A stretch of 64,000 nt of DNA from Mucilaginibacter gotjawali. GTDB lineage: Bacteria > Bacteroidota > Bacteroidia > Sphingobacteriales > Sphingobacteriaceae. Where the stretch lies: assembly GCF_002355435.1 (NCBI RefSeq), contig NZ_AP017313.1, positions 5,456,001 through 5,520,000 on the forward strand, written 5' to 3'. Each line of letters opens with the position of its first letter. The stretch's first letter is position 1. The position numbers and the translations under genes are program-made. Positions 2,707-8,120 of the stretch are shown piece after piece. The notes under the pieces are model-generated. The model ran no database searches, was not told the origin of the DNA, and saw only the letters and a program-made list of their open reading frames with translations.

Positions 2707-3849
2707 ATGAACTGGAAATTCTGGAATAAGAAAAATACGCCAAAAAACACAAATAAGAAGAAGAAAAGCGCTACCCGCGAGTGGGTTGACGCGATAGTTT
2801 TCGCGGTAATAGCGGCTACGCTGATCCGCACTTTTTTTATTGAGGCATATGTTATCCCTACCCCATCAATGGAGAGATCACTGCTTGTCGGCGATTTTTT
2901 ATTTGTAAGCAAAGTTAATTATGGCGCACGCACGCCCATGACACCAATCGCTTTCCCCTTCGCCCATCACACGATGCCATTAACCGGCACCAAAGCATAC
3001 TGGGATGGGTGGGAACTTTCCTATCACCGCCTGCCCGGCTTTAGCAGCGTAAAACGGGGCGATGTGGTCGTATTTAATTACCCCGCCGATACCATCAACA
3101 ACCGGCCCGTGGATAAACGCGAGAATTATATTAAACGCTGCCAGGGCATATCGGGCGATACCGTTAGTGTGGTTGACGGGCAGGTATATGTAAACCGCAA
3201 GGCTGCTCCAAACCCGCCTGGCGAACAGATGGAATATACTTATCATACTGTCGGAGAAGATTTGAACCCTCAGATCGAAGACGACCTGCAAATTACACTA
3301 TATGAAGGGCATTCAGCCAAGGCAATGACACAGGCTTCGGCCAATGTTTTGAAAAGTTATTCCAATGTAAAAGACTTTGCGCCGATTATTGCAAAAAAAG
3401 GGATTCCCGACCTACAATATCCGGTTTTTCCGAAGAGCAGTACTAGCATCATTGATGTAAAACTTACTCAAAATCCGCCGGAATATCATTGGAATGCAGA
3501 TAATTATGGTCCGATCATCATACCTAAAAAAGGCTGGACAGTAAAACTGGACAGCATGACCTTCCCGATCTATGAGCGTGCTATTAAGGTTTATGAAAAC
3601 AATAAACTGGAAGTTAAGGGGACGGATATTTATATCAACGGTGTAAAAACCGATAGCTATACCTTTAAAATGAATTACTACTGGATGATGGGCGATAACC
3701 GCCACGATTCGGAAGATTCACGTTACTGGGGCTTCGTTCCGGAGGACCATATTGTGGGGAAAGCCTTGTTTGTATGGATGAGCTGGGATGATAACGCCTC
3801 TTTCTTCCACAAAATACGCTGGAGCAGGCTGTTTATGGGGATCCATTAA
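2707..3849 (+). CDS. lepB: Signal peptidase I (first tandem copy)
   Basis: Type I signal peptidase, which removes signal peptides on the outer face of the inner membrane. The 380-residue protein has a lysine-rich cytoplasmic tail (1-25), one membrane segment (about 27-47) and the catalytic motif PTPSMERSLLVGD with nucleophile Ser54. The general base is in YIKRCQGISGDT (Lys143), and the family box [14 protein letters not shown] lies near the C-terminus. A lineage-specific insertion of about 150 residues separates the lysine box from the last box. It is closely similar to the second copy at 4306-5775, so the pair is a tandem duplication. Both copies keep the Ser/Lys dyad. Confidence 0.94.
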   Translation: MNWKFWNKKNTPKNTNKKKKSATREWVDAIVFAVIAATLIRTFFIEAYVIPTPSMERSLLVGDFLFVSKVNYGARTPMTPIAFPFAHHTMPLTGTKAYWDGWELSYHRLPGFSSVKRGDVVVFNYPADTINNRPVDKRENYIKRCQGISGDTVSVVDGQVYVNRKAAPNPPGEQMEYTYHTVGEDLNPQIEDDLQITLYEGHSAKAMTQASANVLKSYSNVKDFAPIIAKKGIPDLQYPVFPKSSTSIIDVKLTQNPPEYHWNADNYGPIIIPKKGWTVKLDSMTFPIYERAIKVYENNKLEVKGTDIYINGVKTDSYTFKMNYYWMMGDNRHDSEDSRYWGFVPEDHIVGKALFVWMSWDDNASFFHKIRWSRLFMGIH

Positions 3850-4305
3850 TTGGTTGATTAAGTGAGTGGTTGATTGGGTTGGAAATGGTAAATTTAATGA
3901 CTATTTTATTGAACTTAATCAATTTGACAGGCTCTATAATGAATTATTCGGGTGATTACATAAATATGAACCGGCAATTCTTGAATTGCGGAGAAAATAT
4001 CCCGTTAGGGATAACCCCTTTGTAGAAAAATAAGAATAGATGTTATTGCATCGCCGCACGGTAAATTCACGACAAAAACACCGGGATAAGCATGATGATG
4101 ATTTATCAAAGGATTTGACAATTTGAACCTATTTGTTAATACATTTTAATTGCCTGACAGATTATAAGGGTAGCCCGCCAACTGGCGGACAAAACATAGC
4201 GATGAATGTTGTTCCTACAAAGCGGTAGACCCTACGGGTTATAGAATTAGGTCACACGTGTAAAGCATCATTGAACTATCTGATCTAACCCAATCAACTA
4301 ACAAA
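3850..4305. repeat. 456-bp non-coding gap between the two lepB genes, with nested inverted repeats
   Basis: No convincing gene is present. The gap is bracketed by a 12-bp perfect inverted repeat (3869-3880 and 4287-4298). Inside, 4001-4026 and about 4209-4240 form an imperfect inverted pair sharing the core ctttgtag/ctacaaag. The palindrome ccgccaactggcgg lies at 4175-4188. The layout suggests a dispersed intergenic repeat unit inserted between the duplicated genes. Confidence 0.5.
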
Positions 4306-5775
4306 ATGCAAATCGGCAGCTACATCGGCGTACTCATTCTTGCCTCTCCAATTCTCTTGCTTGCCCTCGCCGGGTATTGGAAATTATTCCAAAAAGCGGG
4401 ACGCAAAGGTTGGGAGGCGCTGATCCCCTTTTATTCAGGCTACGTGATGCTAAAGATCAGCGGGCGACCTGTTTGGTGGTTGATCTGGCTTTTTCTGCCA
4501 TTGGCCAGCACTATTGTCGGGGCCGGTATCCTGGTTGATTTTATCAAGTGTTATGGAAAATATACCGCAAAGGACCGCGCCAAAGCTATACTTTTAGGTT
4601 TTATTTACCTGCCTAAATGGGGCTTCGAAAATAAAACGGTCTATCTTGGCCCCTCAGCATCGCCAGGTTTCAGGAAGGGGCACCCTAAAAGCAGGGCGGT
4701 ATCCTCCGTTATCGCCTGGGGACAAGCCGTGTTTTTCGCGGTGTTCGCCGCCATGTTCATCCGTACGTTTTTTATCGAAGCTTATGTGATCCCAACAGCC
4801 TCTATGGAAAGGACGCTCCTGGTGGGCGACAATATTTTTGTAAGCAAGTTAAACTACGGGGCAAGGATCCCGATGACCCCCATCAGCTTTCCTTTTGCTA
4901 ATCATACCCTGCCAAATACTAATTTCAAATCGTATTGGGATGGATTGGAATTACCTTATTTGCGTCTGCCGGGTTTCAGCAGCATAAAACGCGGCGACGT
5001 AATTGTATTCAATTACCCCCAGGACACCATTGATAACCGCCCGGTGGACAAACGCGAATTTTATATTAAACGTTGTGTGGCTATTGCAGGTGATACGTTG
5101 AATATAATCAACGAACAAGTATTTGTAAATGGCAAAGCACAGGCCGGCCCGCCAGAAGAACAGCTGGAATATTCTTACAAGCTCCACGGCAGGGAGGTTT
5201 CCCCTGATGTTTTGGAGGAGTTGCACGTTATTACCTACGATGGGCACCAATATCCGTCTATGACCAAACAATCGGCAAGGCTACTGCGGGGATATTCCAA
5301 CATCGAGTCCCTCAAACCTGTTTTTTCACCGAAAGGTTTTTCAGAAGATGTTTTCCCGCGCAGCAGTACCAGCTCGATGCATGTGTTGCTTACCAAAACC
5401 ATCCCCGATTATCATTGGAACGTAGACAATTTTGGACCCATCATCATCCCAAAAAAAGGCTGGACCGTAAAACTGGACAGCATGACCTTTCCGCTTTATG
5501 AGCGGGTGATTGAAGTTTACGAGCACAACAAGCTGGAAGTAAAGGGAACGGATATTTTTATCAACGGCAAAAAGATAAATACCTATACCTTTAAAATGAA
5601 CTATTACTGGGTTTTGGGTGATAACCGCCACGACTCGGAAGATTCGCGCTACTGGGGTTTTGTGCCCGAGGATCATATATCAGGCAAAGCCATATTTATC
5701 TGGATGAGCTGGGACAGCGATGCGCCGCTATTTAAAAAGATAAGATGGGAGAGGATACTCGGGGGGATCAAGTGA
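4306..5775 (+). CDS. lepB: Signal peptidase I with N-terminal DUF5684-like membrane extension (second copy)
   Basis: A 489-residue signal peptidase I paralogue. The first ~115 residues are an added membrane region resembling DUF5684, with hydrophobic segments at about 5-25, 57-78 and 93-103 and a [11 protein letters not shown] motif. The peptidase part follows: a membrane segment at about 137-157, nucleophile Ser166 in [13 protein letters not shown], base Lys255 in [13 protein letters not shown], and the [14 protein letters not shown] box. Apart from the extension the sequence closely tracks the first copy, including its large insertion. Both look active, so this is a duplication with possible specialisation by membrane topology. 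Confidence 0.92.
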
Positions 5776-5902: not shown

Positions 5903-6979
5903 TTAGGGGGTTAGGGGGCTGTCGAACTTTACCGCCAATCCCTTTAAATCATTCCATACGGCGTCCACAATCGGGATGCCGTTTTTCTTTCTATCCGCTT
6001 CCGCTTCCAGTTCCGGTTCGCCGGGGATGATCACTTTTTGATTTGGGTCGACAGTGGAGGCTGATTTAAACCGCGCGATCCAGTTATCCATATTAGCTTT
6101 AAATTCATCCAGGGGACGAAACCCATCCACGCGCATGGCGCCCACAAAATGGCCTATACCTAAGCCGACCGGGTCATTTGGTGGCTCTAAAAATGCCACA
6201 AATGGCGGCACCCATGGACCGTAGTTGGCACCGGATAATACTGCTGAAAGAATGTCGACCGTAGCACTCAGCCCAAAACCTTTGTGGCTGCCATGTTCCT
6301 TGTTGCCGCCCAGGGGTAAAAGCGAGCCACCTTTTTTTAAAGCATGGGGGTCTGTGGTAATATCTCCGTTGGCATCCTGGATCCATCCTTCGGGCACCTG
6401 TTTGCCTGATCGCTGGGCGATCTCGAGCTTGCCATTGGCTGCCGCAGAGGTCGCCATATCTACCACTACCGGGGGATAATTTCCTGCCGGGAAAGCGTAA
6501 CAGATGGGGTTGGTGCCCAATAAACGTTCGTTGCTGAATGTGGGGGCCACCAAAGGGCTGGCGTTGGTCATCGCGAAGCCGATCATATTTTTTTCAACCG
6601 CCATTAAGGAATGGTAACCGGCAATCCCAAAATGATTGGAATTTCGAACCGATACCCATCCCGAGCCATATTTTTCTGCTTTTTCAATGGCGAGGCGCAT
6701 CGCAAAAGGTGCAACCACCAGCCCAAGGCCGGCATCGCCGTCAACCGTGGCCGTGGTAGGCGTTTGATGCACAATGGTGATATTGGGATTGGGATTGATC
6801 CGTTTCTTCTCCCACAGGCGCACATAACCCACCAGGCGCGCAACGCCATGCGAGTCGATGCCGCGCAGGTCGGCCTGTATCAACACATCTGCGGCAAGCC
6901 CCGCGTGTTCATCGCTACAGCCCATGGCAAGGAAAACGTTTTGGGTAAAAGTACGGAGGGCCGATTCAGAAATTAGCAT
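5903..6979 (-). CDS. Malate/L-lactate dehydrogenase family (Ldh_2) oxidoreductase
   Basis: A 358-residue NAD(P)-dependent 2-hydroxyacid oxidoreductase of the non-Rossmann Ldh family (malate, L-lactate, ureidoglycolate and sulfolactate dehydrogenases). Diagnostic stretches are ADLRGIDSHGVARL near residue 50, GSGWVSVRNSNHFGIAGYH around 105-125 with the catalytic histidine, and GTNPICYAFPAG around 155-166. The substrate cannot be read from sequence. ATG at 6979 is the only sensible start. The gene appears monocistronic: a hydrolase lies 413 nt upstream and a convergent lepB is downstream. Its 3' end runs into a C/G-rich repeat that supplies the last codons. Confidence 0.9.
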   Translation of the reverse strand: MLISESALRTFTQNVFLAMGCSDEHAGLAADVLIQADLRGIDSHGVARLVGYVRLWEKKRINPNPNITIVHQTPTTATVDGDAGLGLVVAPFAMRLAIEKAEKYGSGWVSVRNSNHFGIAGYHSLMAVEKNMIGFAMTNASPLVAPTFSNERLLGTNPICYAFPAGNYPPVVVDMATSAAANGKLEIAQRSGKQVPEGWIQDANGDITTDPHALKKGGSLLPLGGNKEHGSHKGFGLSATVDILSAVLSGANYGPWVPPFVAFLEPPNDPVGLGIGHFVGAMRVDGFRPLDEFKANMDNWIARFKSASTVDPNQKVIIPGEPELEAEADRKKNGIPIVDAVWNDLKGLAVKFDSPLTP

Positions 6980-7032
6980 ACCGCAAATATAGTATGTTTT
7001 GAATTATACAATCCCCCATGCCGTCCGCCCAT

Positions 7033-7248
7033 CAGGGAAATCGCGTTTAAAACTTGTCGCTTAAAATGTGGCTAAAGCCTTTGTCTTTTTGTTGACTTTT
7101 TCCGTTCCTTAAAAGGAACGGAAATGAATTTTAGAAGTATCGTTTTTCATTCATTGCCGTTGGCTTTAGCCAACTGGTAAACTGAAGCAATAAAAATGGC
7201 TTTAGCCTCAATTAAATATGCCCGTCTTTTTTAAACGCGATTTCCCTG
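7033..7248. mobile_element. MITE-like element with 20-bp inverted ends and 10-bp target duplication
   Basis: A 216-bp non-coding element with perfect 20-bp terminal inverted repeats (cagggaaatcgcgtttaaaa at 7033-7052; its reverse complement at 7229-7248). The ten bases gtccgcccat occur immediately outside both ends (7023-7032 and 7249-7258), as expected of a target duplication. Inside are a hairpin ccgttcctt/aaggaacgg (7102-7121) and three copies of the palindromic core ggctttagcc (7070-7079 inverted, 7162-7171, 7198-7207). No protein is encoded, so movement would need a transposase in trans. The rest of the gap (7260-7392) holds acctgtc-type word repeats and no gene. Confidence 0.75.
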
Positions 7249-7392
7249 GTCCGCCCATTGGCGGATCGGCACCTCACTTGCTATGTATACGCCGTGCATG
7301 TGTCCGCCATACGGGCTACCTGTCATGCGCCCACCTGTCTTGCGTAAACCTGTCCGTGGGGTCCTGAAACAAGTCCAGGATGACATGGAGGT

Positions 7393-7929
7393 TTATATTT
7401 CTACCTGTTTTAAAAACGTCAACCCTTCATCCCACTCCCCATAGCCGGATGATACATTGATGTGCCCCGCATTACCTACATTTATAAATGCACTTCCCCA
7501 GCTATCGGCAAATAATTTTGCGCGCTCAGCGGTTACATAAAAATCATTGGTACTTGAAACAACAATGGACGGGAAAGGTAGTTTTAAAAGCGGCATCGGC
7601 GAAAAGCCATTAGTTACGGTTGGAAAACTTTCCGCTTCGGAATCGGCCGGTGCCGCCAGTAAAGCGCCTTTTATTTTAACATTGAATTTTTGCGCCCAAT
7701 AAGCAACGGCAGCGCAAGCAAGGCTGTGGCTTACCAGGATCACGCCGGCCGGGTCATACCTATTTACCGCAATGTTAATATTTTCTATCCAATCGGCACA
7801 AACAGGCGTTTCCCAATCCGATTGTTCAACGCGGGTAAAATTATATTGTTTTTCCCAAATGGATTGCCAATGCTGCGGCCCTGAACCGCCCAGGCCAGGG
7901 ATGGTGAGGATGGTGGAGTTAAAATGCAT
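7393..7929 (-). CDS. RBBP9/YdeN family alpha/beta hydrolase
   Basis: A 178-residue serine hydrolase of the RBBP9/YdeN family, short alpha/beta hydrolases whose natural substrates are mostly unknown. The N-terminus reads TILTIPGLGGSGPQHWQ, the family oxyanion region. The nucleophile elbow is LVSHSLACAAVAYW (a GHSLG-like motif with SHSLA here), the acid is in SSTNDFYV and the base is in NAGHIN. An in-frame extension to 7983 exists, but its residues are unlike the family, so ATG 7929 is preferred. It is flanked by repeat-rich gaps and has no operon partner. Confidence 0.85.
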   Translation of the reverse strand: MHFNSTILTIPGLGGSGPQHWQSIWEKQYNFTRVEQSDWETPVCADWIENINIAVNRYDPAGVILVSHSLACAAVAYWAQKFNVKIKGALLAAPADSEAESFPTVTNGFSPMPLLKLPFPSIVVSSTNDFYVTAERAKLFADSWGSAFINVGNAGHINVSSGYGEWDEGLTFLKQVEI

Positions 7930-8013
7930 AAATAATAATAATAACGTGTTTAGCGATTGAAAACCCGATACTAAAAGTATCAACTAATTGAAAACATGAG
8001 CGTTATTGTAACT

Positions 8014-8120
8014 CCCCTCTCGAGAGGGGGTGTGCTGGCCTGTGTTGTGGCGGGGGTGTGTTGGCAGCATACTCGCTAACACACCCCTCCACCCCTCTCA
8101 AGAGGGGAATCGCACAGGCC
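8014..8120. repeat. Nested long inverted repeat (about 107 bp)
   Basis: Three nested pairs are visible: cccctctcgagagggg (8014-8029) with cccctctcaagagggg (8092-8107), ggggtgtgttggc (8053-8065) with gctaacacacccc (8075-8087, 12 of 13), and ggcctgtg (8037-8044) with cacaggcc (8113-8120). It lies downstream of the bshC locus and upstream of the hydrolase. It resembles dispersed intergenic repeats of Sphingobacteriales more than a simple terminator. Confidence 0.6.

Follow-up and report, generated by a model that had tools for sequence, protein, structure and literature searches.

The window analysed here is a stretch of 64,000 nucleotides (G000:C1:5456001-5520000) in the 6.34-Mb single-contig genome of Mucilaginibacter gotjawali, and the counts given for this genome refer to the best matches listed. 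Between two minus-strand ORFs (5903-6979, which from its translation we take to be an LDH2-type oxidoreductase, and 7393-7983, which on the same kind of reading is presumably alpha/beta-hydrolase-like) lies a 216-bp element in which no ORF reaches 80 aa. Its arms are complementary at 20 of 20 positions and share the end sequence CAGGGAAATCGCGTTTAAAA, which at up to three mismatches matches nowhere else in the window (chance expectation, 0.00), and identical 10-mers, GTCCGCCCAT, directly adjoin the arms. In this, direct reading and a repeat search agree with an earlier note on the same sequence, which had described perfect 20-bp ends abutting identical 10-mers. The three palindromes counted in that note are likewise all present, two as GGCTTTAGCC (one of them at 7162-7171) and one in the inverted form GGCTAAAGCC, whereas the hairpin it had given as 9 bp is real but has arms of 12 bp (7099-7110 / 7113-7124). 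As a single strand, the block folds into one long nested hairpin at -54.9 kcal/mol, compared with -23.5 +/- 3.2 kcal/mol for shuffled sequences (z -9.7). Removal of the element together with one 10-mer leaves gtccgcccattggcggat, as the earlier reading had it. This rejoined site is no repeat family in itself: only a 39-bp piece of its right flank (window ~7348-7386) recurs in the genome. The features of the block are collected in Table 1.

Table 1. Features of the block between the two minus-strand ORFs, in window coordinates
Feature	Position	Strand	Basis
Left target-site duplication copy, GTCCGCCCAT	7023-7032		Identical to 7249-7258; abuts the terminal repeat
Left terminal inverted repeat CAGGGAAATCGCGTTTAAAA, ISAs1-type end	7033-7052	+	End also found on ISAs1 elements
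Left spacer of the MITE shell	7053-7069		TIR-less REP copies match only from about element position 35-37 onward
REP-doublet (REPIN/BIME-like) core, class A	7070-7207		TIR-less relatives; RAYT-flanking palindromes
Outer palindrome GGCTAAAGCC	7070-7079	+	Direct reading; helix 1 of core alignment A1
REP hairpin CCGTTCCTTAAAAGGAACGG	7102-7121	+	Three helix pairs covary across 27 cores
Second REP hairpin, CCGTTGGCTTTAGCCAACTGG, in the opposite orientation	7157-7177	+	Matches RAYT-flanking hairpins in L176
Outer palindrome GGCTTTAGCC, the inverted counterpart to that at 7070-7079	7198-7207	+	Direct reading; core alignment
Right spacer of the MITE shell	7208-7228		Outside the TIR-less homology
Right terminal inverted repeat	7229-7248	-	Repeat search; end-sequence search
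Right target-site duplication copy	7249-7258		Direct reading

The window genome holds at least nine near-full-length copies of the 216-bp element with a matching interior (80-100% identity) as well as truncated ones, and the end sequence, at up to three mismatches, gave at least 42 matches there versus a single match for a reversed control pattern. Most copies, when read together with their flanks, have a 10-bp duplication that is exact or only slightly eroded. Perfect 10-bp duplications are present at L001, L002, and L008, while those of L003, L004, and L005 match at 8-10 of 10-11 positions. A second family in the same genome (L034, L038, L039, L041, L045, and L049; 205-224 bp) shares the ISAs1-type ends of the 216-bp element and has a quite different interior; its duplications match at 10/10 positions in L038 and L049, at 9/10 in L039 and L041, and at 8/10 in L045. 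An exact-pattern scan for the ends over 84,980 genomes returned at least 120 loci, mostly from Mucilaginibacter, and other hosts among the loci listed include Pedobacter, Parapedobacter, Algoriphagus, Cyclobacteriaceae, Prolixibacteraceae, and Marinilabiliaceae. When the ends among the loci listed were paired and two double-counted tandems removed, 68 elements of 92-576 bp from 26 Bacteroidota genomes were obtained. The 10-bp duplication is perfect in 26 of these 68 and matches at eight or more of ten positions in 44.

The element is thus short and without a transposase ORF, with perfect terminal inverted repeats and dispersed copies bearing target duplications, the features by which a MITE is recognized. 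The earlier proposal of a MITE-like element with a 10-bp target duplication is borne out by dispersed copies that share ends, length, and 10-bp duplications. These sequence comparisons show that the element was mobile in the past and duplicated 10 bp on insertion. Several of the MITEs (L063, L050, and L203/L204) carry an inserted repeat of ~250 bp with ends like GGCTGTCTCAAAAG / CTTTTGAGACAGCC, which looks like another MITE family.

Empty sites in relatives, which the earlier note had anticipated, exist for sibling copies but not in clean form for the window copy. In Mucilaginibacter MAG_BO124, the sites of L041 (empty in L154) and L197 (empty in L070) retain conserved flanks and a single target region. 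One copy is common to MAG_BO124 and the window genome (L126 and L006, respectively), and another is intact in the former (L070) and truncated in the latter (L010). For the window copy, orthologous spacers in G005, G033, G023, and G067 contain neither the element nor the target, and since these spacers differ in sequence, the state of the target cannot be read from them.

Four elements of ~1.2 kb with matching ends, from different genera, were found from the end sequence alone (L167, L151, L091, and L166). The transposase ORFs of L167, L151, and L091 match NF033564 (ISAs1 family) with E values of 1e-106 to 1e-120 and also match PF13808 plus PF01609; L166 has a broken ISAs1-type transposase, whereas the other three elements are intact or near-intact. 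Their flanking duplications match at 10/10 positions in L167 and 8/10 in L166, and no matching duplication was found for L151 and L091 (4 matching positions only). Within the genus, G027 has ISAs1 copies ending in CAGGGAAATCGCTTTTAAC. Another ISAs1 of this genome, likewise intact, ends in CAGGGCAGACGCATTAAAA and is flanked by a 9-bp duplication. By their ends, the ISAs1 elements of G027 (L186, L189-L191) fall into two or more lineages. The transposase using the same ends that the earlier note had called for is therefore available on ISAs1 elements of other genomes, but none was found among the matches listed for the window genome, so that its copies look orphaned. Among 36 same-genus relatives, only G027 has an ISAs1 transposase, and the end sequence occurs once or more in about half of them, a single near-match being weak evidence. 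Several MITE-rich genomes therefore appear to have no present mover.

The element resembles ISAs1 (NF033564; PF13808 + PF01609) in its ends, with CAGGGAAATCGCTTTTAA on full-length ISAs1 copies, and in the 10-bp duplication, which is the same on L167. It differs from ISAs1 in having no transposase gene, in its size (216 bp versus ~1.2 kb), and in its unrelated interior. Since it shares its ends with elements that encode an ISAs1 transposase but has no transposase gene of its own, it is filed as an ISAs1-type MITE and not as an ISAs1 insertion sequence, and an ISAs1 transposase probably moved these elements. The ends could also have come from another DDE family with CAGGG ends and 10-bp duplications, the likeness to ISAs1 being convergent. 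This would agree with the finding that no autonomous partner with identical ends was detected in the window genome, but all four ~1.2-kb elements and the G027 copies encode an ISAs1-type transposase, which makes such an origin highly improbable. An IS4-type origin, raised by the 10-bp duplication, was dropped because ISAs1 elements with matching ends were found. L060 4764-6120, a candidate for an autonomous 1.36-kb element, is really a gene running into a 202-bp MITE.

The interior of the element has a distribution of its own. TIR-less relatives in the window genome match element positions ~35-181 only, and the complete ones consist, in order, of the outer palindrome GGCTAAAGCC, a hairpin ending in CGGCAATGAA, a spacer, an inverted hairpin starting with TTCATTGCCG, and GGCTTTAGCC, an order that corresponds to the anatomy of a REP doublet. 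Class A palindromes flank a RAYT (Y1 transposase) gene of the same genome (G000 6066557-6066898; L176). Another Y1 gene (1872464-1872808; L178) has repeats on its flanks that the second MITE family matches. Of 21 RAYT loci from eight genomes, 16 have flanks similar to MITE cores (E <= 1e-3, the best at 4e-18), compared with 1 of 19 control loci; the control match L271 was left out, since L271 and RAYT L265 are one locus. The match is often to cores of the same genome, as seen for dorajii (L255-L165 and L264-L159), UBA5151 (L254-L147), and psychrotolerans (L268-L174). In the Y1 protein tree, the RAYTs beside class A REPs form one clade (5/5; support 100/99), and so do those beside class B REPs (3/3; support 99/97), both separate from the class C/D RAYTs. 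On the basis of this tree, REP class follows RAYT clade.

Twenty-seven class A cores were aligned and compared with shuffles and slid helices; the helices pair in 96% of cells. Compensatory cells number 27, whereas shuffles give 9.0 +/- 2.1 and slid helices no more than 10. As shuffles ignore relatedness, this covariation is no more than supportive. The core thus has the composition of a REPIN or BIME: two REP palindromes in inverted arrangement, with copies dispersed over the genome and a cognate RAYT flanked by the same REPs. The earlier note had regarded the internal palindromes as added structure; they are present, but not merely as structure, and form the REP doublet of a resident RAYT. 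We infer that the RAYT recognizes such cores inside MITEs.

REPs are tagged at the foot by GTAG or CGTC (PMC3733652); CCGTC is found within many class A cores and CCGTT within the window copy. The motif Y---Q--HH is present in all 21 strong Y1 loci from eight genomes and is the signature of RAYT subclass 1.2, which is described as low-copy and generally without IS200 terminal structures and for which no REP structures are listed (PMC6006769). Unlike in that listing, subclass 1.2 RAYTs here occur with REPs, as dispersed cognate REPs are present for most of the 21 loci, and the element ties this little-studied Y1 subclass to its cognate REPs. A tandem array of ~180-bp units rich in the REP hairpins GCCGCGTAGCGGC and GCCCCATAGGGGC was also observed (L175 900-1440; G000 near 4608818), directly upstream of a Y1 transposase gene.

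The whole element might also be moved as single-stranded DNA by the RAYT (Y1), in which case the inverted ends would be a mere extra stem. The long nested hairpin into which the whole block folds would suit such movement, and the window genome has RAYT genes, while no ISAs1 was found in it. However, Y1 (HUH) transposition, as in IS200/IS605, is not expected to produce the exact 10-bp duplications present here. In addition, some REPs lack the ends, among them those next to the RAYT, and the ends are found on DDE transposase elements. We consider movement of the whole element by the RAYT very improbable.

Different cores occupy the same kind of shell. With REP classes assigned by simple motif rules, the cores of the 68 paired elements fall into class B (18), class A (17), class C (7), and class D (6), giving 48 with a REP of classes A-D, and the other 20 lie outside these classes. 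At least four REP classes share one shell type with a total length of mostly 200-260 bp, and several classes may occur within one genome (A, B, and D in flavus; B and D in dorajii; A and B in psychrotolerans). These comparisons show that the shell has been paired repeatedly with different REP classes, and the pairing of shell and REP recurs widely among related bacteria from soil. The cores of two species differ at one orthologous site, being of class B in the window genome (L201) and of class C in YR_bin-2518 (L092); the flanks align to the base, and the duplications have decayed in both (~6/10). A core swap is suggested by this one site with its eroded duplications. In M. flavus, two MITEs stand in direct tandem (L055 6313-6753), core B followed by core A, with a single 10-mer between them and copies of the 10-mer on both sides. 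Within the window itself, a TIR-less inverted repeat of ~100 bp, CCCCTCTCGAGAGGGG ... CCCCTCTCAAGAGGGG, was noted at 8013-8115; it has 74% identity over 121 bp to a MITE core of M. psychrotolerans (L077 1035-1220), and its repeat class occurs both alone and inside an ISAs1-type shell.

Common intergenic MITEs and REPs might also have become nested independently, by chance insertion on a few occasions, so that their pairing would otherwise be meaningless. Long open frames do contain few copies of either repeat type (34 of 44 MITE sites lie outside them), the class A REP is also found alone in the window genome, and non-REP cores exist. Yet chance would have had to bring at least four REP classes into matching shells of similar length, often several per genome, and to place a REP core in 48 of 68 elements. 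We therefore hold independent nesting to be possible but doubtful.

The explanation that we prefer, at a probability of roughly 0.85, is that the block is a non-autonomous ISAs1-family MITE whose core is a REP doublet belonging to a RAYT system. Its ends would have been recognized in trans by an ISAs1 transposase that the window genome no longer has, and the element would have moved as a DNA duplex. REP doublets would have entered ISAs1-type shells, or been swapped within them, several times, be it through RAYT action, through insertion next to a second MITE and later loss of either one, or through recombination via the shared ends. In a tandem of the M. flavus type, the loss of either MITE would leave core B or core A at the same place, and each hybrid of shell and REP core may later have been amplified by the ISAs1 transposase. 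More tentatively, we propose a recurrent hybrid of two systems, in which ISAs1 shells with REP doublets of different RAYT clades, installed or exchanged in place, could be moved both by DDE (as duplex) and by HUH (as single strand) transposition, with the subclass 1.2 Y1 proteins being genuine RAYTs with cognate REPs; we rate this wider proposal as less likely than not.

A host role, such as bidirectional transcription termination or the protection of mRNA at sites downstream of genes, could be the reason why the copies are kept and would be compatible with the ISAs1-family MITE reading, although we rate it as rather unlikely. It would be in keeping with strong hairpins that show compensatory changes, with the location of the copies mostly outside long open frames, with their persistence without a transposase, and with one terminator-like site in the element (7099-7124). 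The count of terminator-like sites is at chance level (1 versus 0.6 in shuffles), however, and a terminator function of the element was rejected for this reason. Moreover, the Rfam search of the element gave no family at the gathering threshold, and compensatory change is equally expected if RAYTs recognize the hairpins.

The core resembles REPINs and BIMEs with their RAYT (TnpA-REP) in its inverted hairpin pair, its dispersal, and the palindromes that flank a Y1 gene, but differs from them in being enclosed in DDE transposon terminal repeats with a target duplication. A MITE of Porphyromonas gingivalis contains a minisatellite, according to the part of that report considered here (PMC4596501), and is therefore also a Bacteroidota MITE enclosing another kind of repeat; there it is a tandem minisatellite, whereas here REP doublets of several classes are enclosed. 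Some insertion sequences insert into REPs, as stated in the sections of two further reports that bear on this (PMC1525189, PMC8450116), and insertion sequence and REP are physically associated in those cases too. Compared with what these sections describe, the nesting here is the opposite, with the REP inside the transposon ends and copied along with them. In the open-access literature searched for ISAs1 MITEs, for RAYT/REP MITEs in Bacteroidetes, and for REPs within MITEs, the pairing is undescribed. Judged against that literature, the ISAs1 MITE is a known kind of element and the exchangeable REP cores are what is new.

The mechanisms of REP dissemination are called poorly understood in the relevant part of one report (PMC8266576), and the spread of REPs and the role of RAYTs are an open question in bacterial genome evolution. 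If REPs ride inside the ends of a DDE transposon, their dispersal need not hinge on the RAYT alone, and copy numbers taken as RAYT activity would mislead. The element, moreover, offers an easy test for core exchange in place and is a case of a MITE that has outlived its transposase in the majority of the genomes of one genus.

The suggestion in the earlier note that the element targets palindromes did not hold, as the 10-mers and the rejoined sites are no more palindromic or structured than controls. Over 43 insertion sites, half-site complementarity of the 10-mer is not above that of control positions, and 37 rejoined sites fold at a mean of -5.3 kcal/mol, versus about -5.6 kcal/mol at positions 105-210 bp away. 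Hairpin-like rejoined sites are few among the 37, L057 and L159 being the clearest and the window site moderately so. At 4170-4245, the window has a REP-like stretch, GGTAGCCCGCCAACTGGCGGACAAAAC ... CTACAAAGCGGTAGACCCTACGGGT, which resembles class C/D REPs and contains the palindrome at 4175-4188 that the earlier note had likened to the insertion site. Since this palindrome seems to belong to a class C/D-like REP, the resemblance can be explained without targeting. Two neighbouring plus-strand ORFs (2707-3849 and 4306-5775), named by eye only, are presumably signal peptidase I paralogues; their sequences are similar, and the second has an N-terminal extension.
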